Part shown: positions 47,797-59,814 of the stretch, one piece after another
Numbering within the stretch: the first letter of the stretch is position 1
Layout of the letters: every line of letters starts with the position of its first letter
NCBI RefSeq assembly: GCF_030814215.1
Contig: NZ_JAUSUT010000001.1
Location: forward strand, 248,001-312,000
DNA length: 64,000 bases
Source: Amycolatopsis thermophila
GTDB lineage: Bacteria > Actinomycetota > Actinomycetes > Mycobacteriales > Pseudonocardiaceae
Direction: 5' to 3'
Notes under the pieces: generated by a model
What the model saw: the letters and a program-made list of their open reading frames with translations, nothing else
What the model was told of the DNA's origin: nothing
The model's database searches: none
Made by a program: the position numbers and the translations under genes

Positions 47797-47806
47797 TTGT
47801 CTACAA
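47797..47806. promoter_or_regulatory. TTGTCTACAA dyad, candidate GntR operator
   Basis: TTGT-CT-ACAA lies in the divergent space between the fusion regulator and the MFS gene, 57 bp before the MFS start. TTGT-N-ACAA is the usual shape of FCD-type operators. The regulator is assigned by position. Confidence 0.45.
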
Positions 47807-47862
47807 AAATCGCGGTACCGATACTTCACCGCTATCCATCCAGCAGAGGCGAGGAGTACCGG

Positions 47863-49227
47863 ATGCGGCATTCGATCATCGACGCCGAACCGTACGGGAA
47901 GTTCCACCGGAAACTGTTCTTCCTGTCCGCGGGCGGGCCGTTCCTGGACGGCTACATCCTGAGCGTCGTCGGCGTGGCCATCGGCGGGGCGTCGGCCGAC
48001 CTCGGGCTGACCCCGGGGCAGGAAGGACTCGTGGGTGCGTCGGCACTGGTCGGCGTCCTGCTCGGCGGGCTGGTGTTCGGCTGGGTCACCGACCGCGTCG
48101 GCCGCCAGCTCATGTACACGATCGACCTGGTCGCGCTCGTGCTGTCCTCCGCACTGTGCCTGGTCGTGCCCGACGCGTGGTGGCTGATCGCCCTCCGCGT
48201 CGTCGCTGGCGTCGCGGTCGGCGCGGACTACCCGATCGCCACGTCCCTGCTCGCCGAATGGCTACCCGCGGACCGCCGCGGCCGCACCATGGGCGCGCTC
48301 GTCGCCGCGTGGTTTGTGGGCGCCGCGGCCGCCTACCTCGTCGGCTACGCGGTGACCGCGGTCGCCGGGGACGAACCGTGGCGCTGGATCCTGGCCAGCG
48401 GCGCGCTTCCCGGGATCATCATCCTGCTGGCCCGCCTGGGCACTCCCGAGTCGCCCCGGTGGCTGCTGCGCCACGGCCGGCGCGACGACGCCAGGGAAGC
48501 CATCCACAAGGCGTTCGGCCGCTACCCCACCGAGGCGGAACTGACCGTCCTCGCCGAACAGGAACCGCCTGCGAAGTCCCGCCTGTCCCGCGTCTTCACC
48601 GGCGGCTACCTGCGCCGCACCCTGTTCGCGGGCGGGTTCTGGCTCTGCCAGGTCGCACCCGCGTTCGCGATCATCACCTTCTACCCGGTCGTGCTCGGCG
48701 CCTACGGCTTCTCCAAGGGAGGCACCGCACTGCTGTGGTCCGCGGCGGTCACGCTGGTGACGATGGCCGGCTGTTTTCCGTGCATCCGGCTCGTCGAGTC
48801 GTGGGGCCGCCGTCCGGTGATCATCTGGACCTTCGTCGCCTCCGCGATCCCGCTGGCGGTGCTCGGCTTCTTCCCGGGACTGCCCGCCGTGCTCGCGATC
48901 GTCCTGTTCTCGGTGAACGCCCTCGCCCAGGGCGGCGGCAACATCCTGCAGTGGATCTACCCGACCGAACTGTTCCCCACCGACATCCGCGCCTCGGCCG
49001 TCGGCGTCGCCAGCGCGATCAGCCGGATCGGTGCGGCGGGGGGCACCTACCTGCTCCCCCTGAGCCTCGACCACCTCGGCCTCGGCCCGACCATGCTCAT
49101 CGGCGCCGCGATCGCCGTCATCGGCACGGTGATCTGCGTGCTGTGGGCGCCGGAGACGCGGGGCCAGGCCCTGCACGAGAGTTCCTCGACGACACCGGTG
49201 CGCCGGGCCCGGGAGACCGCGCGATGA
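47863..49227 (+). CDS. MFS transporter (sugar-porter/metabolite-proton type)
   Basis: A 454-residue transporter with 12 expected helices. DRVGRQLMY and ADRRGRTMGA are the A-type loops between helices 2-3 and PESPRWLL plus PETRG the sugar-porter signatures. ATG at 47863 follows GAGGAG; an upstream in-frame GTG overlaps the operator. It is translationally coupled (ATGA) to the flavoenzyme gene and probably imports its substrate. Confidence 0.9.
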   Translation: MRHSIIDAEPYGKFHRKLFFLSAGGPFLDGYILSVVGVAIGGASADLGLTPGQEGLVGASALVGVLLGGLVFGWVTDRVGRQLMYTIDLVALVLSSALCLVVPDAWWLIALRVVAGVAVGADYPIATSLLAEWLPADRRGRTMGALVAAWFVGAAAAYLVGYAVTAVAGDEPWRWILASGALPGIIILLARLGTPESPRWLLRHGRRDDAREAIHKAFGRYPTEAELTVLAEQEPPAKSRLSRVFTGGYLRRTLFAGGFWLCQVAPAFAIITFYPVVLGAYGFSKGGTALLWSAAVTLVTMAGCFPCIRLVESWGRRPVIIWTFVASAIPLAVLGFFPGLPAVLAIVLFSVNALAQGGGNILQWIYPTELFPTDIRASAVGVASAISRIGAAGGTYLLPLSLDHLGLGPTMLIGAAIAVIGTVICVLWAPETRGQALHESSSTTPVRRARETAR

Positions 49228-51263
49228 CCGACCCGCTGCTCACCCCGTTCCGCCTGAAGACCCTTACCCTGCGCAACCGCGTTGTCAGCACGTCGCACGA
49301 GCCCGGCTACGGCGTCCACGGCATGCCCGCCGACCGCTACCGCGCCTACCACGTCGAGAAGGCCCGCGGCGGGATCGCGCTGACCATGATCGGTGGCGGC
49401 GCCGTCGTGAGCCCGGACGCCACCCCCTCGTTCGCGAACCTGCGCATGGACTCCGACGACGTGGTCCCCTGGCTGCGGCGGCTGTCCGACGAGGTGCACG
49501 CCGAAGGCGCGGCGGTGATGACCCAGCTGACGCACCTCGGTCACCGCACCAGCAACCACAGCGGCGACTGGCTTCCCGTGCTGTCGGTGAGCGCCGTGCG
49601 CGAGCCCGCGCACCGCGCGTTCACCCGGGAAGCCGAACCGCACGACCTGCGCCGCATCGCCGCCGACTTCGCCAGTGCCGCCCTGCGCTGCCAGGACGGT
49701 GGCCTCGACGGTGTCGAACTGATGGCGTACGGGCACCTGCTCGACAGCTTCTGGTCGCCGGCGATGAACCGGCGCACCGACGGCTACGGCGGTGACCTGG
49801 ACGCCCGGATGCGCTTCCCGCTCGAGGTGATCGCGGCGGTGCGCGAGGCGGTCGGCAGCGACTTCGTGGTGGGGATCCGCATGGCCGTCGAGGAACGACG
49901 GCCCGGCGGGCTGACCGCCGAGGAGGGGCTGGAGATCGCCCGGCGCGTCGTGGACGCGGGCATCGACTTCATCAGTGTGATCCGCGGCCACATCTCGACC
50001 GAGAACGGCCTCTCGCACGTGATCCCGCCGATGGGCGAACGGTCGGCACCGCACCTGACGCTCGCCGGCGCGGTCCGCGCGCACGTCGGCGTGCCGGTGA
50101 TGCACGCGGCGCGCATCGCCGACCTGGCCACGGCCCGGTACGCGATCGCCGAGGGCCTGCTCGACCTGGTCGGCATGACCCGCGCGCACCTCGCCGACCC
50201 GCACCTGGTGCGGAAACTGCAGGCCGGGGAGGCCGACCGCATCCGGCCGTGCGTCGGGGCGAGCGCGTGCATCGACGCGGCCTACCTCGGCGAACCGGCC
50301 CACTGCGTGCACAACGCCTCGACGGGCCGGGAACTCCAGCTGCCGCACCGGATTCCGCCCGCACCGGCCGTCAAACGGGCGGTCGTCGTCGGTGCGGGCG
50401 TGGCCGGTCTGGAGGCGGCCCGCGTGCTCGCCGAGCGCGGGCACGACGTGACCGTGTTCGAGGCGGCCGACCAGCCCGGCGGACAGCTGCTGCTGGCCGC
50501 CAAGACCCCCCGGCGTCGTGACCTGGCCGGCATCGTGGACTGGCGCGTCGCCGAGCTGCGGCGGCTCGGGGTCGCGGTGAAGCTGAACCACTACGCCGAG
50601 GCCCGCGAGGTCCTCGAGCTGGAGCCGGACGTCGTGGTCGTCGCCACCGGCGGGACGCCCGACACGCGGTTCCTGGACGCGGGCGCGAACCTCGTGCACG
50701 ACACGTGGGACGTGCTCTCCGGCGCTGTCCGGCCGTCCGGTTCCGTGCTCGTCTACGACGACCACGGCGGCCATCCCGGCCTGGACGCGGTGGACGCGCT
50801 GCTGGACGCGGGCGCGGACGTGGAGTGGGTCAGTCCGGAAAGGACGATCGGGGTCGAGGTCGGCAGCGTCAACGCCCCGCCGTACCTGCGGCGCTTCACC
50901 GGCGACGGGGTGCGGGTCACACTGCTGCACCGGCTGACACGGGTCGAGCGGGACGGCAGCCGCCTGCGGGCGGTCTTCACCAGCGACCTCGCCGACACTG
51001 GCGCGGAGACGCTGACCCGCGTCGTCGACCACGTCGTGGTGGAACACGGGACGCTGCCCAACGCCGACCTTTACCACGACCTGGTGCCGCACTCGACGAA
51101 CCTCGGCGAGATCACCGTCGCCGAGCTGCTGGCCCGGCGGGAGCAGCCGGCCGGCCCGAACGCCGACGGCGCGTTCCGCCTCTACCGCATCGGCGACGCC
51201 GTGAGCAGCCGCAGCATCCACTCCGCCGTGCTGGACGCGTTCCGCCTCTGCGTCGCGGTGTGA
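49224..51263 (+). CDS. OYE-type flavoenzyme, N-methylproline demethylase / DgcA-like
   Basis: A 679-residue protein: N-terminal old-yellow-enzyme barrel with FMN (to about 370), a short cysteine cluster (PCVGASACID, HCVHN) and a C-terminal FAD/NAD domain (AVVVGAGVAGLEAARVLAER). SHEPGYGVHGMP, YHVEKARGGIALTMIGGG, GGLDGVELMAYGHLLDSFWS and MTRAHLADPHLV follow the DgcA/N-methylproline demethylase group more than 2,4-dienoyl-CoA reductase. That group oxidatively removes N-methyl groups from betaine-derived amino acids. It has fewer cluster cysteines than trimethylamine dehydrogenase. It is encoded with the MFS transporter. Confidence 0.85.
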   Translation: MTDPLLTPFRLKTLTLRNRVVSTSHEPGYGVHGMPADRYRAYHVEKARGGIALTMIGGGAVVSPDATPSFANLRMDSDDVVPWLRRLSDEVHAEGAAVMTQLTHLGHRTSNHSGDWLPVLSVSAVREPAHRAFTREAEPHDLRRIAADFASAALRCQDGGLDGVELMAYGHLLDSFWSPAMNRRTDGYGGDLDARMRFPLEVIAAVREAVGSDFVVGIRMAVEERRPGGLTAEEGLEIARRVVDAGIDFISVIRGHISTENGLSHVIPPMGERSAPHLTLAGAVRAHVGVPVMHAARIADLATARYAIAEGLLDLVGMTRAHLADPHLVRKLQAGEADRIRPCVGASACIDAAYLGEPAHCVHNASTGRELQLPHRIPPAPAVKRAVVVGAGVAGLEAARVLAERGHDVTVFEAADQPGGQLLLAAKTPRRRDLAGIVDWRVAELRRLGVAVKLNHYAEAREVLELEPDVVVVATGGTPDTRFLDAGANLVHDTWDVLSGAVRPSGSVLVYDDHGGHPGLDAVDALLDAGADVEWVSPERTIGVEVGSVNAPPYLRRFTGDGVRVTLLHRLTRVERDGSRLRAVFTSDLADTGAETLTRVVDHVVVEHGTLPNADLYHDLVPHSTNLGEITVAELLARREQPAGPNADGAFRLYRIGDAVSSRSIHSAVLDAFRLCVAV

Positions 51264-51443: not shown

Positions 51444-51482
51444 ATGGTGATCCGTTCCCGAACCGCGCAGGTCGAGCGGTGA
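51444..51482 (+). CDS. Possible 12-residue leader peptide
   Basis: ATG at 51444, nine nt after GGGAGG, encodes MVIRSRTAQVER and stops at TGA 51480-51482, overlapping the GTG start of the LuxR-type gene (GTGA). The better ribosome site belongs to this mini-frame, so the downstream start may rely on coupling. It may have no function as a peptide. Confidence 0.4.
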   Translation: MVIRSRTAQVER

Positions 51483-51703
51483 CCGCCACGCTCGACGAAC
51501 CCCTCAGATCCACCGTCCTGAACGAGCAGGAACGCGCCGTGCTGGCGCTGCTCGCGGACGGGCTGCCGATCGAGGCGGTGGCCCGGCGGCTCAACCTGTC
51601 CAAACGCACGGTGCAGCGCCGGATCCGGCGGATCTGCGACCGGCTGGACGTCCACGCGCCGATCCAGGCCGTGGTGTGGGCCGCCCGGCGCGGGCTCATC
51701 TGA
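51479..51703 (+). CDS. Stand-alone LuxR-type HTH protein (left flank)
   Basis: A 74-residue protein that is nearly all HTH: LNEQERAVLALLADGLPIEA, then ARRLNLSKRTVQRRIRRICD. No sensor or receiver domain is present. Its C-terminus (DRLDVHAPIQAVVWAARRGLI region) is very like that of the gene at 59022-59231. It lies 57 bp before the sugar-oxidation operon and may regulate it. Confidence 0.8.
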   Translation: MTATLDEPLRSTVLNEQERAVLALLADGLPIEAVARRLNLSKRTVQRRIRRICDRLDVHAPIQAVVWAARRGLI

Positions 51704-51759
51704 CGTGCGGTGCGACCACCGCAACGGCAAGGCAAATCCGACGCTAGGCGAGGGATGGT

Positions 51760-54700
51760 ATGCGGCACAGACGTGATCTCGAACCGAGCCGATCGAGACG
51801 GCCCTGGGCACCACCACGGCGGCGGGGCAGGTTCCGGCGGTCGCTGGCCCAGCTGTGCGGACTGGTCCTGCTGACCGCCGTGCCCGTGGTCCCCGCGCTG
51901 GCCGCGCCGGCCCCGGCCCCGGCCGAGGCCGCCGTGGCGGCGTCGGAACCGGTGCGGGTGCTGGTCTTCCACGGCCCGTCCGACCGGCAGGCCGACCCGG
52001 TGAACACCGCCGCCGCGGCGATCCAGGAACTGGGCCGCACCGGCGGGTTCCAAGCCGACGTCACGGCCGACCCGGCTGCGTTCACCCCGGCCAACCTGGC
52101 CCGTTACCGCGGCGTGGTGTTCCTCTCCGCCGACGGTGTCACGCTCAGCCCGGCCCAGGAGGACGCGCTCAAGGCGTTCGTCGCCGCCGGCAACGGGTTC
52201 GTCGGCGTCCACGACGCCGCCCGCGCACAGTCCACATCGGACTGGTTCACCGGGCTGATCGGCACCCGGCCGGCGGCGAGCCCGGACACGGTGCAGCAGG
52301 CCGTGGTCGACGTGACCGACCGGCAGCACCCCGCCAACACGGGCCTGCCGCTGAACTGGACCCGCTCCGACCAGTGGCTGAACTGGAGCCCGAACCCGGT
52401 CGGCCAGGTGCACACCATCGCCCAGGTCGAGGAGTGGAAGTACCAGGCGGGCGACGAGGCCAACGGCGCGTTCCACCCGGTGTCCTGGTGCCGCGACTAC
52501 TCCGGCGGCCGCTCCTTCTACACCGGCATGGGCCGCACCCCGGAGAGCTACACGACCGACCAGCTCTTCCGCGGTCACCTGCTGGGTGCGATCCAGTGGA
52601 CGGCGGGCATGGTGCGCGGCGACTGCCAGGCGACCATCGCGTCGAACTACACCGTGGAACGCCTCACCGCCAAGAACCAGCCGGGGCAGCTGGACCAGAT
52701 CGGTGAGCCGCACGGCCTCACGATCGCCCCCGACGGCAAGGTGTTCTACATCGGCAAGGCCGCCTGCCCGTCCGGCCCGGTCGTCGACTGGTCGGACCCC
52801 GACGTCGGCCTGGGCTGCGGCACGATCCACCAGTGGGACCCGAAGACCAAGCAGGTCAAGCTGCTGACCACGCTCGAGGTGATGGGCAACCGCGGCAGCG
52901 GTGACGAGCTGGTGAAGAACGAGGAGGGCCTGGTCGGCATCACGCTCGACCCGGACTTCGCCCGCAACGGCTGGATCTACGTGTACTGGATGCCGCACGA
53001 GTCGATCGACCGCGACCTGCGGATCGGCCAGCGCACGGTGTCCCGCTTCACCTACGACGCGGCGAGGCAGACCATCGACCAGTCGACCCGCAAGGACCTG
53101 CTGCACTGGGACGCCCAGATCCACAGCTGCTGCCACGCCGGCGGCGGCATGGCGTTCGACGACGCGGGCAACCTCTACATCGGTGTCGGGGACAACAACT
53201 CCTCCGGCGGTTCGGACGGCTACTCCGGCAACAACTGGACGGCCGAGTACAAGGGCACCTCGTTCCAGGACGCCCGCCGCACCTCCGGCAACACCAACAA
53301 CCTCAACGGCAAGGTGCTGCGCATCCACCCCGAGGCGGACGGCACCTACACGATCCCGCCGGGCAACCTGTTCACCGGGACCGAGGAGGGCGGCGGCAAG
53401 ACCCGCCCGGAGATCTACGTGATGGGTGTGCGCAACATCGCGCGCCTGGCGATCGACAAGCAGCACGACTGGCTCACCGCGGGCTGGGTCGGTCCGGACG
53501 CCGGCGGCCCGAACCCGGAGCTGGGCCCGGCCAAGTACGAGACCGCGACCGTCATCACCTCGGCGGGCAACCAGGGCTGGCCGTACTGCATGGGCAACCG
53601 GCAGCCCTACCGGGACCGCAGCAACACCGACGCGAGCGTCCTCACCGGCTGGTACGACTGCGGTGACCTGAAGAACACCTCGCCGCGCAACACCGGCCTG
53701 GTGGACATCCCGCCCGCACGGGACAACGCGATCTGGTACTCGCCGCAGGGCGGCGGCCCGGTCTACCCGGCGCGCGCCGACGGCAGCGGGATCCCGTCGT
53801 ACGTCCAGTCCGAGGCCACCTACACCGAGCCCTACCTCAAGGGCGGCGGCCAGGCGGTCATGTCCGGCCCGACCTACCACCGCTCGGAGGTCAACACCGC
53901 CAGCGGGGTCGCGTGGCCGGCCTACTGGGAGGACAAGTGGTTCATCGGTGACGAGTCCAACGCGAACAACCGCATCGCGGTGACGCTCGACCCGTCGCGC
54001 GTGCCGAACCAGGGCCCGCCGGCGTTCGCCGAGGACCTGCGGCAGATCATCAAGGGCGGCGGTGGCGACACCGCGCTGCAGAGCTGGATGGACGCCAAGT
54101 TCGGTCCGGACGGGGCGCTGTACCTGCTGGACTACGCGGGCGGGTTCTTCAGCCTCGACCCCAACCAGAAGCTGATCCGGATCAGCTACCACGGTGGGGC
54201 GCCGACCCCGTCCCCGGAGGCGGCGACCGTCGCGACGACCACCCAGGCCGGCCCGATGACCATGGCGTTCAACGGCGCCAAGGCCGGTGGCGTGTCCTGG
54301 CGGTGGGACTTCGGTGACGGCACCACGTCCACCGAGGCCAACCCCACGCACACCTACCTGCGCGGCGGCACCTACGACGCCACGCTGGAGGTCACCTACG
54401 CCAACGGGGAGAAGGCCACCAAGCGGCTGCCGGTGACGGTCAGCTGCCCGGCTCCGGATGCCCGCAAGTCGGTGTGGATCCTCGACTCCGAGACCAAGGT
54501 GGCCAACCGCAACATCGGCCTCGGCTGCACCGTCAACGACCTGATCGACGACGAGCGGGCCTGGCCGGACCACGACGCGTTCACCGCGTACGTGACCGAC
54601 GTGACGAACAAGCTGCGCGGGTTCGGGCTGCTGTCCGACAAGGACGTGAACGCGCTGGTCCGGGCGGCCTCGTCGTCACCGGTGGGCCGGGCGGGCACCA

Positions 54701-55350
54701 CGGGCTACGAGTGGCTGTTCGACGGCACGTCGACCAACGGCTGGAGCCAGGCCCCGGACGGGAGGTTCGACCTGCAACCGGACGGGACCCTGCACAGCTC
54801 GGGCGGCATGGGCATGCTCTGGTACTCGGGCAAGGCGTTCGGCGACTTCTCGGTGCGCCTGCAGTTCCGGGACGTCGCACCGGCCGGTGACCGCGCCAAC
54901 AGCGGCGTGTTCACCCGGTTCCCGGACCCGCGCACACCGCTGGAGCAACGCCCGCCGGGCAGCTGCGGCACGGTCGGCTCGGCGCGGACGTCGCAGGCGT
55001 GGGTGGCGATCTACTGTGGACACGAGATCCAGATCAACGACAACACCGCGGGTGACGCGCAGAAGACCGGTTCGGTCTACAACTTCTCGCAGGTGGGTCT
55101 GGACGGGGCGTTCCCGACGGCGAAGGGCGTCTGGAACGACTACGAGGTGCGGGTGACCGGCCAGCACTACACGATCATCCGCAACGGTGTGGTCATCAAC
55201 GAGTTCGACAACACCCCGGGCAAGCCGTCGTCGCGCGCCGGCGACCCGCCGACGGACCTGCGGCAGTTCTTCAGCGGGTTCATCGGCTTGCAGAACCACA
55301 GCGATCGCGACGTGATCGAGTTCCGCAACATCCGGGTGCGCCAGCTCTAG
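51760..55350 (+). CDS. Secreted ThuA / PQQ-type sugar dehydrogenase / PKD / DUF1080 multidomain protein
   Basis: A 1196-residue exported protein. A basic N-terminus and signal segment (LCGLVLLTAVPVVPALAAPA) precede a ThuA-like domain (65-290; VRVLVFHGPS, GNGFVGVHDAA). Residues 312-830 form a glucose/sorbosone dehydrogenase-type propeller (EPHGLTIAPDGKVFYIG, CCHAGGGMAFDDAGNLYIGV, NLNGKVLRIHPEADG). A PKD domain (844-900; WRWDFGDGTTSTEANPTHTY) and a DUF1080/3-keto-disaccharide hydrolase-like domain (982-1196) follow. Together they suggest extracellular oxidation and cleavage of a glycoside. First gene of a four-gene operon. Confidence 0.88.
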   Translation: MRHRRDLEPSRSRRPWAPPRRRGRFRRSLAQLCGLVLLTAVPVVPALAAPAPAPAEAAVAASEPVRVLVFHGPSDRQADPVNTAAAAIQELGRTGGFQADVTADPAAFTPANLARYRGVVFLSADGVTLSPAQEDALKAFVAAGNGFVGVHDAARAQSTSDWFTGLIGTRPAASPDTVQQAVVDVTDRQHPANTGLPLNWTRSDQWLNWSPNPVGQVHTIAQVEEWKYQAGDEANGAFHPVSWCRDYSGGRSFYTGMGRTPESYTTDQLFRGHLLGAIQWTAGMVRGDCQATIASNYTVERLTAKNQPGQLDQIGEPHGLTIAPDGKVFYIGKAACPSGPVVDWSDPDVGLGCGTIHQWDPKTKQVKLLTTLEVMGNRGSGDELVKNEEGLVGITLDPDFARNGWIYVYWMPHESIDRDLRIGQRTVSRFTYDAARQTIDQSTRKDLLHWDAQIHSCCHAGGGMAFDDAGNLYIGVGDNNSSGGSDGYSGNNWTAEYKGTSFQDARRTSGNTNNLNGKVLRIHPEADGTYTIPPGNLFTGTEEGGGKTRPEIYVMGVRNIARLAIDKQHDWLTAGWVGPDAGGPNPELGPAKYETATVITSAGNQGWPYCMGNRQPYRDRSNTDASVLTGWYDCGDLKNTSPRNTGLVDIPPARDNAIWYSPQGGGPVYPARADGSGIPSYVQSEATYTEPYLKGGGQAVMSGPTYHRSEVNTASGVAWPAYWEDKWFIGDESNANNRIAVTLDPSRVPNQGPPAFAEDLRQIIKGGGGDTALQSWMDAKFGPDGALYLLDYAGGFFSLDPNQKLIRISYHGGAPTPSPEAATVATTTQAGPMTMAFNGAKAGGVSWRWDFGDGTTSTEANPTHTYLRGGTYDATLEVTYANGEKATKRLPVTVSCPAPDARKSVWILDSETKVANRNIGLGCTVNDLIDDERAWPDHDAFTAYVTDVTNKLRGFGLLSDKDVNALVRAASSSPVGRAGTTGYEWLFDGTSTNGWSQAPDGRFDLQPDGTLHSSGGMGMLWYSGKAFGDFSVRLQFRDVAPAGDRANSGVFTRFPDPRTPLEQRPPGSCGTVGSARTSQAWVAIYCGHEIQINDNTAGDAQKTGSVYNFSQVGLDGAFPTAKGVWNDYEVRVTGQHYTIIRNGVVINEFDNTPGKPSSRAGDPPTDLRQFFSGFIGLQNHSDRDVIEFRNIRVRQL

Positions 55351-55432
55351 CACACCTCCCCTCCCCGGTGGCGCCGCTCGTCGGGCGGCGCCACCGGCTC
55401 CCCACCTGTGACGACGAAAGGGTTGTCGACCC

Positions 55433-57049
55433 ATGCGCATCCTCCGGGGCGTGCTGGTGGCCGGGACAGCGACACTGTGCCTGCTCACCGGCACCACCAC
55501 CGCCGCACTCGCCGAGCCGGTGCCGGTCACCGGCACCTCGGTGGCACCACTGGCGGACCAGGTGCTCACCTGGACCGCGAACGACAGCATGACGGAGTAC
55601 GCCTCCGCACCGGCCACCGCCGTCGCCGGGGCGGCCACCATCGTGTTCGAGAACAGCACGGCCACCGGCAACACCACCGCGATGACCCACACGCTGACCT
55701 TCGACACCACGACGCCCGGCTACAACCACGACGTCGACGTCAACATCACCGCCAGCCCGCTGGACTCCCAGGGCGGCCGGCACGAGGTGCAGGCCACGCT
55801 GACCCCGGGCAAGTACCGCTACTACTGCGCGATGCCCGGCCACACGATGAGCGGCGAGCTGATCGTCACCGAGGGCGGCGGCCAGCAGGACACCACCCCG
55901 CCGGAGGTGACCGCCACCGTCGACGGGAACACCGACGGCGACGGCAACTACATCGGCACCGCCACCGTCACGCTGGCCGCGACCGACGACAGCTCCGGCG
56001 TGGACACCGTCGAGTACACCCTCGACGACGACAACTACCGCCCCTACGACGGGCCGATCACCATCACCGCGCCGGGCGCGCACAACGTCCACTACCGGGC
56101 CACCGACAAGGCGGGCAACGCAGCCGAGCCGAAGACCCTGGTCGTCACCGTCGTGCAGCCCGACAACGACACCACCCCGCCGGTCGCCACCGCGACCGTC
56201 GCCGGCGACCGGAACGACAGCGGGAACTACGCGGGCAGCGCCACCGTCACCCTCGCCGCCACCGACAGCGGATCCGGCGTCGCGACGATCGAGTACACAG
56301 TGGACGGCAGCGGGTTCCGCACCTACAGCCAGCCGGTCGTGCTGTCGCAGACCGGCACCCACACCCTCACCTACCGCGCGACCGACAAGGCGGGCAACAC
56401 CAGCCAGCCCAAGTCGCTCACCGTGGTCGTCGACCCGCTCGGGGACGTCGTCGCGCCGTACGTGACGGCCGATCTGTCGGGCGAGGTGAACACGCAGGGC
56501 TCCTACGTCGGCAAGGCCACGCTCACCCTGGCCGCCACCGACACCGAATCCGGCGTCGCCTCGATCGAGTACGACCTCGACGGCGCGGGATTCGTCCGTT
56601 ATGGACAGCCGGTGACGCTGACCGCGGTCGGGACGCACATGCTGCACTACCGGGCCACCGACCGGGCGGGCAACGCCAGCGCGGTGCAGATGCTGTCGTT
56701 CACGATCGCCGAGGCGGGCGACGTCACGGCGCCGGTGGTGTCGGTGCAGCTCGCCGGTGCGCAGAACTGGTCGTGGGACTTCGTCGGCCCGGTGACGGTG
56801 ACGCTCTCCGCCACCGACGAGGCCTCCGGCGTCTCGCGGATCCAGTACTCGGTGGACGGTTCGGCATTCACCCGGTACACCAAGCCGTTCGTCATCGACC
56901 ACGTCGGCACCCACACCATCCGCTACAAGGCGACCGACGAGGCCGGCAACACCAGTGCGACCGCGAGCGTGACGTTCACCGTGGCGGCCGCGACCGGCCC
57001 GTCCCACCAGGCCCCGCACCCGAACGCCGCCGACCAGCGCATGGTCTGA
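55433..57049 (+). CDS. Secreted cupredoxin with four Ig-like (OmpL47-type) repeats
   Basis: A 538-residue exported protein with signal peptide (VLVAGTATLCLLTGTTTAALA). The cupredoxin domain (about 45-145) has the type 1 copper ligands: His in AMTHTLTF and Cys/His/Met in YYCAMPGHTM. Four repeats of about 92 residues start near 153, 246, 338 and 430; each has ATDxxSG, IEYxxDG and YRATDKAGN. Blue-copper domains carry single electrons. Placed between a sugar dehydrogenase and a copper oxidase, it could shuttle electrons between them; the repeats may hold it in the cell wall. Confidence 0.88.
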   Translation: MRILRGVLVAGTATLCLLTGTTTAALAEPVPVTGTSVAPLADQVLTWTANDSMTEYASAPATAVAGAATIVFENSTATGNTTAMTHTLTFDTTTPGYNHDVDVNITASPLDSQGGRHEVQATLTPGKYRYYCAMPGHTMSGELIVTEGGGQQDTTPPEVTATVDGNTDGDGNYIGTATVTLAATDDSSGVDTVEYTLDDDNYRPYDGPITITAPGAHNVHYRATDKAGNAAEPKTLVVTVVQPDNDTTPPVATATVAGDRNDSGNYAGSATVTLAATDSGSGVATIEYTVDGSGFRTYSQPVVLSQTGTHTLTYRATDKAGNTSQPKSLTVVVDPLGDVVAPYVTADLSGEVNTQGSYVGKATLTLAATDTESGVASIEYDLDGAGFVRYGQPVTLTAVGTHMLHYRATDRAGNASAVQMLSFTIAEAGDVTAPVVSVQLAGAQNWSWDFVGPVTVTLSATDEASGVSRIQYSVDGSAFTRYTKPFVIDHVGTHTIRYKATDEAGNTSATASVTFTVAAATGPSHQAPHPNAADQRMV

Positions 57050-57079
57050 CTCCCCCATCCCCCAACGGAAGGACCGTTC

Positions 57080-58006
57080 ATGTCCCATCTTTCGCGGCGG
57101 GCCGTGCTCGGCGGTGCGGCCGCCGGGCTGGCCGCGTCGGTCGCCGTGCCCGGTCTCGCGGCCGCCGCGCCGGTGCAGCCGCAGGGCGAGACCCGGCGCA
57201 TCACGATGTACGCCGAGAAGATCTCCGACGAGCTGTACGGCTACGGCCTGGCCCCGGGCGCGGCGACCGTGCCCGGGCCGGTGCTGGAGATGTGGGAGGG
57301 CGACACCCTCGAGATCGACCTCGTCAACACCACCGACCGGGTGCTGTCCCTGCACCCGCACGGCGTCGACTACGACGTCAACTCCGACGGCACCCTGATG
57401 AACAACTCGGCGGTGATGCCCGGCCAGACGCGGCGCTACACCTGGCGCAGCCACGTGGGCTACCGCCGGGCGGACGGGTCGTGGGCCGAGGGCACCGCGG
57501 GGTACTGGCACTACCACGACCACGCGATGGGCACCGAGCACGGCACCGAGGGCATCCTCAAGGGCCTGTACGGGGCGCTGGTGGTGCGGCGGCAGGGCGA
57601 CCTGCTGCCCAAGCGCCAGTTCACCGTGGTGTTCAACGACATGCTGATCAACAACCGCCCGGCGCACCAGGCCCCGACGTTCGAGGCGAACCTGGGCGAG
57701 CGGGTGGAGTGGATCGCGATCGGGCACGGCAGCAACTTCCACACCTTCCACCTGCACGGGCACCGCTGGCTGGACAACCGCACCGGCATGCGGACCAGCG
57801 AGTACGACCACAGCCCGCTGATCGACATCAAGGACCTCAACCCGGGTGTGTCGTTCGGGTTCCAGGTGATCGCCGGCGAGGGCGTCGGGCCGGGGATGTG
57901 GATGTACCACTGCCACGTCCAGAACCACTCGGACATGGGCATGGCCGGGATGTTCCTCGTCCGCAACGCCGACGGCACGATGCCCGCCGGTGTCCACGAC
58001 CACTGA
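57080..58006 (+). CDS. Two-domain multicopper oxidase (small-laccase type)
   Basis: A 308-residue enzyme with a Tat signal ([15 protein letters not shown]). Copper ligands are complete: HPHG (near 92), HYHDH (144), HTFHLHGH (221) and [12 protein letters not shown] (277). The length and motif spacing match two-domain laccases such as Streptomyces SLAC, which work as trimers and reduce oxygen to water. It would be the terminal oxidase of the proposed chain. It follows the cupredoxin gene by 30 nt. Confidence 0.92.
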
Positions 58007-58026
58007 ATTGATCGGAGGAGATTGAC

Positions 58027-58947
58027 ATGTGTGGTGGCGCTCCCGTCGCGTTCGACCGGCGGCGGTTCCTGGCAGGTGTGACGGCGACGGCGGCCGGTGT
58101 CGCGGCGCTCGGTTTCGGGGCTTCCCCGGCGGCGGCCGCGGAACCGGACGGCGGATGGGGCCGGACCATCCCGAACAGCCGGATCGGCCTGCAGATGTAC
58201 TCGGTGCGGGACGCGTTCATGTCCCAGCCCGAAGCGGTCCTCGCCGCCCTGGCCCGCGCCGGGTACCGGAACCTGGAGTTCGCGGGTTTCCCGGGCGGGA
58301 CCGACCCCGCGCACGCCCGGGAGATCCGGCCGCTGCTGGACAAGTACGGCCTGCGGGCCGTGTCCAGCCACCACGGGTACGCCGAGTTCACCGACGAGGC
58401 CCGGCTCGACGAGCTGATCGAGATGGCCCGGATCCTCGGGCAGCAGTACATCGTCTGCCCGGGCGGTGTGCCGGACACGGCGGAGGGTTTCGCGGCGGCG
58501 GGGCCTGCGTTCAACCGGGCCGGGGAGAAGATCCGGCGCGCGGGGATGAAGCTGGGGTACCACAACCACACCGGCGAGTTCCTCGGGCACGGGCCGGACG
58601 GGCGCACGTTCTACCAGATCCTGCTCGACGCTTCCGATCCCCACCTGCTGTACATGGAACTGGACATGGGCTGGTCGTCGGCGGCGGGGTTGAGCGCGCA
58701 GGACAACGTGGAGCTGATCCGCGCCAACCTCGGGCGGATGCTGCTGGCGCACGTGAAGGATCTGGACGCCAACGGCAACCTCGCCGACCTCGGCACGGGC
58801 GTCGTCGACTACCGCACCATCCTGAGCGGCGCGACCCGCCTGGGGATGCGCGAGTTCATCATCGAGAACGACGACCAGAGCAACCCGCTCACCGATTCCC
58901 GTGCCGACCGGATGCACGACTACCTGGCCGCGCTGCGACTCGGGTAG
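58027..58947 (+). CDS. Tat-exported sugar isomerase/epimerase (TIM barrel)
   Basis: A 306-residue xylose-isomerase-like barrel with a Tat signal (DRRRFLAGVTATAAGVAALG). Metal and substrate motifs include GLQMYSVRDAF, SSHHGYAEF, LGYHNHTGEF, MELDMGW and HVKDLD. This family includes 3-keto-sugar isomerases/hydratases and appears with ThuA and DUF1080 proteins in keto-sugar pathways. Folding in the cytoplasm with metal before export would explain the Tat route. GGAGGAG precedes the ATG. Confidence 0.88.
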   Translation: MCGGAPVAFDRRRFLAGVTATAAGVAALGFGASPAAAAEPDGGWGRTIPNSRIGLQMYSVRDAFMSQPEAVLAALARAGYRNLEFAGFPGGTDPAHAREIRPLLDKYGLRAVSSHHGYAEFTDEARLDELIEMARILGQQYIVCPGGVPDTAEGFAAAGPAFNRAGEKIRRAGMKLGYHNHTGEFLGHGPDGRTFYQILLDASDPHLLYMELDMGWSSAAGLSAQDNVELIRANLGRMLLAHVKDLDANGNLADLGTGVVDYRTILSGATRLGMREFIIENDDQSNPLTDSRADRMHDYLAALRLG

Positions 58948-59021
58948 CGGGTCTCCGGTAGGGCCTCCGGTAGGGGAAGGATCCGGCTCCGGCGGGGATG
59001 GGCAGGCCCGCCGGAGCCGGG

Positions 59022-59231
59022 TCATATCGCGCCGTGGCGGACGGCCCACACCACCGCCTGGATGGGGGTGGCCACCCCGAGGCGGTCGCAGACCGCCCGG
59101 ATGCGGCGGCGCACCGTCCGGCCCGACAGGCCCGTCCGCCGGGCCACCTCCTCGGGCGACAGGCCCTCCGCGAGCAGCTCCAGGAGGACCAGGTCGCTGC
59201 GTGGCAGTTCGGTCACCTCCGGCCCCTCCAC
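59022..59231 (-). CDS. Stand-alone LuxR-type HTH protein (right flank)
   Basis: A 69-residue HTH-only protein: LLELLAEGLSPEEVARRTGL then SGRTVRRRIRAVCDRLGV and PIQAVVWAVRHGAI. It is the sister of the gene at 51479-51703 and points inward from the other end of the sugar-oxidation cluster. GTG 59231 is taken as start; GTG 59216 or a longer frame to 59297 are possible. Confidence 0.72.
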   Translation of the reverse strand: MEGPEVTELPRSDLVLLELLAEGLSPEEVARRTGLSGRTVRRRIRAVCDRLGVATPIQAVVWAVRHGAI

Positions 59232-59389: not shown

Positions 59390-59684
59390 TTGAAGCCGGC
59401 ACCGGGACAGCCGGACAACCTCGTCTTCATCACCCGATCGGAGAGGGTCGCCGAGCCGAGGAACGTCAACACCATGCTCGACCGGGTGTTACGGAGAGCG
59501 ACCATCGACCCCAGCGGCCTGCATGACTTGCGCCACACCTGTGCGACGCTGCTGCTGGAAGACGGGCGAGCATCCGCGAGGTGACGGAGCACGGGCCACG
59601 CCTCGCTCACGACGACGGCCGACAACTACGGTTCACGTGCCGGACCAGGCGAAGCGGCAGATGGAGCTGGTCGTGGGGACCTGA
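59390..59684 (+). pseudogene. Tyrosine-recombinase (phage/ICE integrase) C-terminal remnant
   Basis: PDNLVFITRSERVAEPRNVN and LHDLRHTCATLLLEDG give the integrase core with HxxR. Pieces after it (IREVTE, GHASLTTTADNY, HVPDQAKRQMELVVGT) belong to the same protein but fall in different frames, so at least three frameshifts are present and the N-terminal two thirds are missing. It lies 58 bp from the 3' end of the tRNA-Asn gene, the usual attachment site side for such integrases. Confidence 0.82.
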
Positions 59685-59704
59685 TGTCACCCCTGGATGC
59701 CAGA

Positions 59705-59731
59705 AGGGCCCCGGATGATCTCCGAGGCCCT
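59705..59731. terminator. Stem-loop after tRNA-Asn
   Basis: Arms 59705-59715 and 59721-59731 pair at 10 of 11 positions around five bases, 10 bp beyond the tRNA 3' end in its direction of transcription. Likely the tRNA terminator. Confidence 0.6.
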
Positions 59732-59741
59732 GTTTGTGCAG

Positions 59742-59814
<73 letters not shown>

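Follow-up and report, generated by a model that had tools for sequence, protein, structure and literature searches.

Small laccases (SLACs), two-domain multicopper oxidases represented by 3CG8, the Amycolatopsis enzyme 3T9W and Ssl1, have drawn attention for about twenty years, chiefly as phenol oxidases for biotechnology. Gfo/Idh-type dehydrogenases occur in known 3-keto-glycoside pathways, the closest of which to the genes described here are Caulobacter LacABC with DUF1080 and the Bacteroides BT2157 type. A passage of PMC3527528 calls the physiological functions of most bacterial laccases unknown, and a section of a review terms the roles of Streptomyces laccases speculative (PMC7036934). 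DUF1080 proteins are known or proposed 3-keto-glycoside hydrolases, as an excerpt of PMC9007349 states, and the fungal AA12 pyranose dehydrogenase CcPDH couples a GSDH-like propeller to an electron-transfer domain and binds pyrroloquinoline quinone (PQQ) in its crystal, according to parts of PMC6881789. Here we describe a gene set from Amycolatopsis thermophila that lies within positions 51479–59231 of a 64,000-nt stretch of DNA (the window) and encodes a GSDH propeller protein carrying a 3-keto-disaccharide hydrolase (KDH) domain, a cupredoxin, a SLAC and a sugar isomerase-like protein. We lean slightly towards the reading that these genes encode an extracellular copper-dependent glycoside-oxidizing system, in which electrons would pass via cupredoxin and SLAC to O2. 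All parts belong to known families, and the new element is their fixed genetic partnership; we found no publication describing a partnership of ThuA-GSDH, cupredoxin and SLAC in the open-licence literature.

The four genes, P0001 to P0004 (Table 1), are co-directional and separated by 82, 30 and 20 nt; the initial annotation had put the gaps at 30–82 nt, which is right for the first two and not for the third. By eye, P0003 and P0004 carry twin-arginine (Tat)-like RR motifs, and P0001 and P0002 have signal-like N-termini; P0001 is probably exported. P0001 shares with sGDH (1C9U), E. coli YliI (2G8S) and the S. coelicolor protein 3DAS a six-bladed propeller and the aligned His, Arg-Asn and Gly-Pro residues. 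In contrast to these proteins, P0001 has no aligned equivalents of Lys377, Arg406 and Arg408, has a Cys-Cys pair before the His and inserted loops, is fused to ThuA, PKD and KDH domains, and has constant cupredoxin and multicopper oxidase partners. P0003 is by sequence a member of the two-domain SLACs with its copper ligands kept, and we see no difference in the protein itself; what is new is its fixed dehydrogenase-like and cupredoxin gene partners. The likeness to the Caulobacter and Bacteroides pathways lies in KDH and, in some loci, in an exported sugar-isomerase-like partner, whereas here the dehydrogenase is a GSDH propeller rather than LacABC or Gfo/Idh, the parts look exported, and the proposed electron route runs through a cupredoxin and a multicopper oxidase. 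CcPDH differs in having a cytochrome b instead of a cupredoxin.

Table 1. Features of the gene set in the window (positions are those of the 64,000-nt stretch).
Feature	Position	Strand	Basis or remark
LuxR-type helix-turn-helix (HTH) protein, orphan, 74 aa, GTG start	51479..51703	+	GerE PF00196, E 5e-11
P0001, 1196 aa: ThuA, GSDH six-bladed propeller, PKD, 75-aa module, KDH	51760..55350	+	Pfam, domain scans
ThuA domain, residues 66–281	51955..52602	+	PF06283, E 6.9e-58
GSDH propeller domain, residues 291–810 (Pfam GSDH 384–611)	52630..54189	+	Pfam above cut-off
Cys457-Cys458-His459, vicinal cysteines by presumed catalytic His	53128..53136	+	Alignment with sGDH His144
PKD domain, residues 819–894	54214..54441	+	PF18911, E 1.2e-14
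75-aa module, before KDH in P0001	54472..54690	+	Common to most cupredoxin proteins of other loci
KDH domain (3keto-disac_hyd, former DUF1080), residues 984–1194	54709..55341	+	PF06439, E 8.5e-35
P0002, 538 aa: cupredoxin, then four OmpL47-type Ig-like repeats	55433..57049	+	Pfam
Cupredoxin domain; type-1 Cu ligands His86, Cys132, His137, Met139	55523..55882	+	Ligand alignment, fold match
P0003, 308 aa: two-domain SLAC	57080..58006	+	3T9W match, E 1.1e-188
P0004, 306 aa: xylose-isomerase-like TIM barrel (sugar isomerase/epimerase type)	58027..58947	+	AP_endonuc_2 PF01261, E 4.4e-16
Second LuxR-type HTH protein, orphan	59022..59231	−	GerE, E 4.4e-6

The partnership is kept across genomes. P0001 had 486 matches; we kept the best 80, which gave 75 loci from named genomes, and left out 11 non-actinobacterial loci (L095–L105) and one fragment (L085) before counting. 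A ThuA-GSDH protein of the same clade is present in the resulting 63 loci, and a cupredoxin and a two-domain multicopper oxidase lie nearby in 62 of them; the sole locus without partners, L090, is a 4.6-kb contig and was counted all the same. The source records of the loci with P0001 relatives span more than 20 genus names. Since only the best 80 of the 486 matches were kept, the 62/63 linkage speaks for this clade only, and whole genomes were therefore sampled too. The class sample of 148 genomes contains 21 with the dehydrogenase clade, 22 with the cupredoxin and 22 with SLAC, and every one of the 21 dehydrogenase carriers has all three, with no more than 1.7 kb from the dehydrogenase to the cupredoxin and no more than 2.9 kb to SLAC. 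The clade limit of 850 bits was set with knowledge of the scores in these genomes, which drop from 854.6 to 307.9 bits, two of the 22 cupredoxin genomes (G122 and G137) rest on weak matches of 73–76 bits, and the additional genome in both the cupredoxin and SLAC lists is the same one, G075. SLAC was searched for in the class sample with a profile built on the SLACs of the clusters themselves, and in the genus sample below with the 3CG8 chain.

Consistent linkage is also seen at closer range. In 150 genomes from the genus of G147 (apparently Streptomyces), SLAC was found in 95, the dehydrogenase in 92, both in 91 and neither in 54; the two genes are divergent in all 91, at 1002–1275 bp. Four genomes have SLAC alone, and in the one with the dehydrogenase alone the contig ends just beyond the dehydrogenase gene. 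Fisher tests gave p values of 1e-24 and 9e-35, the latter for the 150-genome genus sample and both ignoring relatedness. In the family of G099, 16 of 22 genomes carry dehydrogenase and SLAC, on the same contigs, and six carry neither; the genome samples partly overlap, nine of these 16 carriers being also in the class sample. In the genus of the window, 9 of 19 genomes have a close P0002 relative, and SLAC, the isomerase and the GSDH-KDH end adjoin it in 9/9. Four further stretches from the same family (L010–L013, about 4 kb each) place the cupredoxin beside the KDH-bearing end and are too short for SLAC. A chance neighbourhood is thus ruled out by 62/63 loci, 21/21 class carriers and 91/92 genus carriers, and the conservation across actinobacterial genomes expected in the initial annotation is borne out. 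Separately, the cluster at L054, from a record named Rhodococcus rhodnii, resembles Kibdelosporangium clusters by eye, and that assembly is possibly mislabelled.

What is conserved is gene content rather than gene order. Relative to the dehydrogenase in the 62 loci, same-strand SLAC genes lie upstream in 50 and downstream in three, with nine divergent; same-strand cupredoxin genes lie downstream in 42 and upstream in nine, with 11 on the opposite strand. These varied positions rule out a conserved order: the four-gene order proposed earlier is seen only in Amycolatopsis loci, and elsewhere SLAC is upstream on the same strand or divergent and KDH is sometimes on the cupredoxin protein. Because order and strand differ between genera, the linkage has survived rearrangement. 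The kept unit comprises ThuA-GSDH, a cupredoxin, a two-domain multicopper oxidase, and KDH on one of the first two. No other neighbour is constant: among 13 recurrent non-core clusters, the widest occurs in 16 of the 62 neighbourhoods, and the five that were scanned with Pfam gave no Pfam match, an ABC ATPase, ROK, LysR and an ABC permease.

The propeller keeps some features of a dehydrogenase. P0001 has the six-bladed GSDH fold, and the propeller model (mean pLDDT 81.6) has as best matches 2ISM, 3A9G, 7CGZ/7CDY, PQQ-bound 3DAS and YliI. In the alignment, His459 corresponds to sGDH His144, Arg558-Asn559 to Arg228-Asn229, and Gly589-Pro590 to Gly247-Pro248, the sGDH residues Arg228, Asn229, Gly247 and Pro248 being presumably those that touch PQQ and Ca. 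These positions and the Cys457-Cys458-His459 motif are invariant in 63/63 rows of the clade and in 3/3 Bacteroidota rows. These Bacteroidota relatives also give the strongest hint that the propeller works as a dehydrogenase with the cupredoxin as acceptor: two Lunatimonas species and Flavihumibacter have single proteins in which ThuA, GSDH (with the CCH motif) and PKD are followed by a cytochrome c. They match P0001 in domain order up to PKD and in the CCH motif and differ in that their acceptor is a fused cytochrome c and no KDH match is found in the same protein (L121:4160-7600, L123 and L124). The search covered eight genomes of the 11 non-actinobacterial loci and gave three strong matches, two weak ones and three genomes with none. 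A further relative there, L122, is without ThuA and has a sub-cut-off CBM_6 match.

The ThuA match of the actinobacterial proteins is split by an insert in 54 of 63 loci. The insert is roughly 100 aa (for example in L033:9974-14005) and, in the two examples read by eye, looks like what we take to be a discoidin/CBM32-type domain.

The putative electron carrier and the oxidase are intact as copper proteins. The Copper-bind match of P0002 is barely above cut-off (22.3 versus 21.2 bits), and its AlphaFold2 model, with a mean pLDDT of 91.4, has cupredoxins and cupredoxin domains as best structural matches. The His-Cys-His-Met type-1 ligands are invariant in 31 of 31 aligned cupredoxins, and their signature is found in all 62 cupredoxin proteins; the tails of these 62, three of which are cut or masked, show neither a cell-wall sorting motif nor a C-terminal membrane helix. 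P0003 is about 95% identical by hand count over 281 aligned residues to 3T9W, a deposited small laccase from an Amycolatopsis, matches Cu-oxidase_2 and Cu-oxidase_3 above cut-off, and keeps both cupredoxin domains and all type-1, type-2 and type-3 copper ligands. The blue-copper protein and the complete two-domain multicopper oxidase of the initial annotation are therefore confirmed. Of 63 SLAC copies, 62 have intact copper-ligand motifs; the exception, an additional copy in L043 (L043:8138-8971) beside an intact one, has Tyr for a type-1 copper His. Typical cupredoxin potentials suit electron donation to a two-domain laccase. With two-domain laccases at 0.35–0.45 V, a range given in a portion of PMC8236229, SLAC appears fit to accept electrons from the cupredoxin.

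The KDH domain, too, is constant. KDH matches its profile in P0001 with 120.9 bits against a curated cut-off of 26.8. Of 63 loci, 56 have it on the GSDH protein, nine of these (Micromonospora/Asanoa) on the cupredoxin protein as well, and six (Streptomyces) on the cupredoxin protein instead; in 62/62 loci it is attached to the propeller or the cupredoxin. A LacABC- or Gfo/Idh-type 3-dehydrogenase beside KDH was not found among P0001–P0004, the two genes upstream and five of the 13 non-core clusters, the rest of the window and genome not having been searched. The 75-aa module is on 56/63 ThuA-GSDH proteins and on 51/62 cupredoxin proteins, mostly at the end, and is absent from P0002. Pfam scans of four proteins placed no best stretch over it; it is possibly a docking module.

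The isomerase is a different case. P0004 has 8BVK, 8TCD and 8TCS as relatives in the PDB. An isomerase is present in 15 of 63 loci, of which four have close P0004 relatives (above 500 bits) and 11 have matches of 69–126 bits; Tat-like leaders are seen at 11 of the 15 N-termini, and in the remaining four the reading frame begins too far upstream for a leader to be judged. With 15/63 loci it is ruled out as a core member, and what had been taken for a link of the chain is an optional addition.

On these grounds we propose the following scheme. The propeller would act outside the membrane and oxidize a glycoside there; its steady association with a 3-keto-glycoside hydrolase makes C3 the probable site of oxidation. 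From the propeller, electrons would move one at a time to the cupredoxin and on to the type-1 copper of SLAC, which would reduce O2 to water. Cleavage of the keto-glycoside would fall to KDH, perhaps with ThuA; some species may then use an exported isomerase to reshape the keto-sugar before it is taken up. The electron transfer, the substrate and the C3 chemistry are all predicted from sequence. Fungal AA12 dehydrogenases are thought to feed lytic polysaccharide monooxygenases (LPMOs), and by analogy the cupredoxin could feed secreted LPMOs with SLAC as just an overflow. We find this barely credible, as SLAC is a constant neighbour and no LPMO family appears in the five scanned clusters of the 13 recurrent non-core ones, LPMO genes as such not having been searched for.

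Several observations weigh against a sugar-oxidizing chain that ends in SLAC. Small laccases oxidize phenols, and it is conceivable, though unlikely, that plant glycosides yield phenolic aglycones through the dehydrogenase and KDH, that SLAC oxidizes the phenols, and that electrons go from the dehydrogenase back to the quinones or radicals, shuttled by the cupredoxin, so that SLAC would not be a dedicated terminal oxidase. Passages of PMC3918160 and PMC3527528 describe phenol oxidation by SLACs in vitro, and the Amycolatopsis small laccase 3ta4 was solved with a ligand that we read from its title as a lignin model; this alternative, however, leaves unexplained both the cupredoxin in 62/63 loci and the cytochrome c fusion in Bacteroidota. 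In addition, SLAC occurs outside the set. In the genus sample, 4 of 95 SLAC genomes are without this dehydrogenase: G259 has a degenerate SLAC remnant, and the other three have no further core gene in the 8.7–15 kb examined. A dehydrogenase-free SLAC is found in G075 and a second SLAC in G087, and G145 and G198 have second sets of a cupredoxin and two SLACs. Furthermore, actinobacterial GSDH paralogues of the CCH type stand away from the gene set in two of four paralogue loci examined (L127 and L128). The cofactor adds two more points. The three basic positions of sGDH are replaced in the clade, Lys377 by Ser733 (mostly Ser), Arg406 by Ser775 (mostly Ser) and Arg408 by an invariant Met777; and PqqC together with PqqE exceeds the cut-off in just 2 of the 148 class genomes, G000, the window's own, and G131.

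Some of these exceptions can be described further. At L136 (G259:C83) a SLAC fragment overlaps a KDH piece and appears to be what is left of a decayed cluster. L108 (G145:C1), L109 (G198:C54) and L107 (G075:C34) each have a cupredoxin-OmpL47 gene and two tandem SLAC genes in stretches that lack ThuA-GSDH; this may be a cupredoxin-laccase module that serves a different donor. The paralogues of L127 and L128 are about 700 aa long and have a CCHVGG motif.

The residue replacements were mapped via the alignment with YliI, which is distant in that region, and on the assumption that YliI and sGDH are equivalent at these positions. The Bacteroidota rows have Ile/Met (then Arg), Ala/Ser/Lys and Ile there. 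Arg406 we take to be a PQQ-carboxylate-binding residue of sGDH. A passage of PMC6881789 names Lys377 and Arg408 and has basic residues form ion pairs with the PQQ carboxylates. Another Arg might stand in, for example the invariant Arg507, which lies in an inserted loop absent from YliI, in the poorest part of the propeller model. Both genomes with PqqC and PqqE over cut-off are among the 21 dehydrogenase carriers, so the other 19 would have to take PQQ up from outside or manage without it. PqqC is found below cut-off in one further class genome; the PqqE profile gives some match in 131 of 148 class genomes and in 14 of 14 control genomes, and the sub-cut-off matches are taken as other radical-SAM proteins. 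The adjacent pqqC and pqqE matches of the window's own genome lie at G000:C1:6719959-6721947.

Canonical PQQ binding by the propeller is thus not supported by the alignments. Probably the propeller holds, beside the Cys-Cys pair, an organic cofactor, quinone-type or other, bound differently from PQQ in sGDH. Of the PQQ-type propeller assigned at the outset, the fold, the presumed catalytic His, Arg-Asn and Gly-Pro stand; the equivalents of Lys377, Arg406 and Arg408 and, in 19 of 21 carriers, PqqC and PqqE over cut-off do not. The lack of a PQQ or heme site, named there as what would count against the idea, applies in part, in that the aligned basic residues for the PQQ carboxylates are absent. 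Their loss would also fit a propeller that is a non-oxidizing binding or scaffold domain, in surface proteins kept together for some other reason; the hedgehog-interacting protein shares the fold and is not known to oxidize. We consider this quite improbable, given the invariance of the presumed catalytic His, Arg-Asn and Gly-Pro in 63/63 and 3/3 rows and the constant pairing of the propeller with electron carriers. The wiring from dehydrogenase to cupredoxin to laccase to O2 remains the best reading, and the initial interpretation is partly supported.

The gene set appears to include the laccase of Streptomyces coelicolor. The chain 3CG8 is, we assume, S. coelicolor SLAC; 4gyb, which has the same sequence, is titled S. 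lividans. The laccases of genomes G340 and G323 are 98% identical to the 3CG8 chain, and in G340 SLAC is divergent from ThuA-GSDH, which precedes a cupredoxin-OmpL47-KDH gene. SLAC is SCO6712 in a passage of PMC3918160, and part of PMC6414726 describes SCO6710 as a glycosyl hydrolase with putative CsoR repression; we infer that SCO6710–SCO6712 correspond to this cluster. The putative CsoR repression of SCO6710, two gene numbers from SLAC, together with the invariant Cys-Cys pair of the propeller, would fit a role in copper handling or maturation, in which SLAC oxidizes Cu(I) or acts in maturation of the dehydrogenase or cupredoxin (forming, say, a protein-derived cofactor or the Cys-Cys disulfide) and takes no part in moving substrate electrons during turnover. 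Such a role seems distinctly unlikely: the blue-copper carrier is as constant as SLAC, whereas a Cu oxidase needs no such partner, and a scan for one CsoR-like operator pattern gave a single site in 1.44 Mb, where shuffled sequence gave 8.65 on average.

The two orphan LuxR-type HTH genes flank P0001–P0004, which explains the span given to the gene set in the initial annotation; the upstream one is a candidate local regulator. Immediately upstream, at window positions 47797–51263, lie genes for a sugar-type transporter of the major facilitator superfamily and an FMN/pyridine-nucleotide oxidoreductase. At about 59400–59814, an integrase-like remnant, recognized by eye beside a tRNA-Asn gene, is a possible trace of a mobile element at the cluster end.

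A broader claim is that actinobacterial SLACs are primarily the terminal oxidases of an extracellular sugar-oxidation chain feeding secreted 3-keto-glycoside cleavage, and that the dehydrogenase, together with the cytochrome-c-fused Bacteroidota proteins, forms a GSDH class of its own, whose cofactor, beside the vicinal Cys-Cys, is not canonically bound PQQ. We put this forward tentatively, as somewhat likelier to fail than to hold. If the proposed chain is correct, small laccases would gain a physiological role in passing electrons from extracellular sugar oxidation to oxygen, and the near-invariant partnership with a dehydrogenase-like and a blue-copper protein makes that role directly testable with named genes of a laboratory strain, by inference SCO6710–SCO6712 of S. 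coelicolor. It would also add to the 3-keto-glycoside pathways an oxygen-linked branch, in Gram-positive bacteria and outside the membrane, and it flags a GSDH subclass whose usual label of PQQ-dependent may be wrong.

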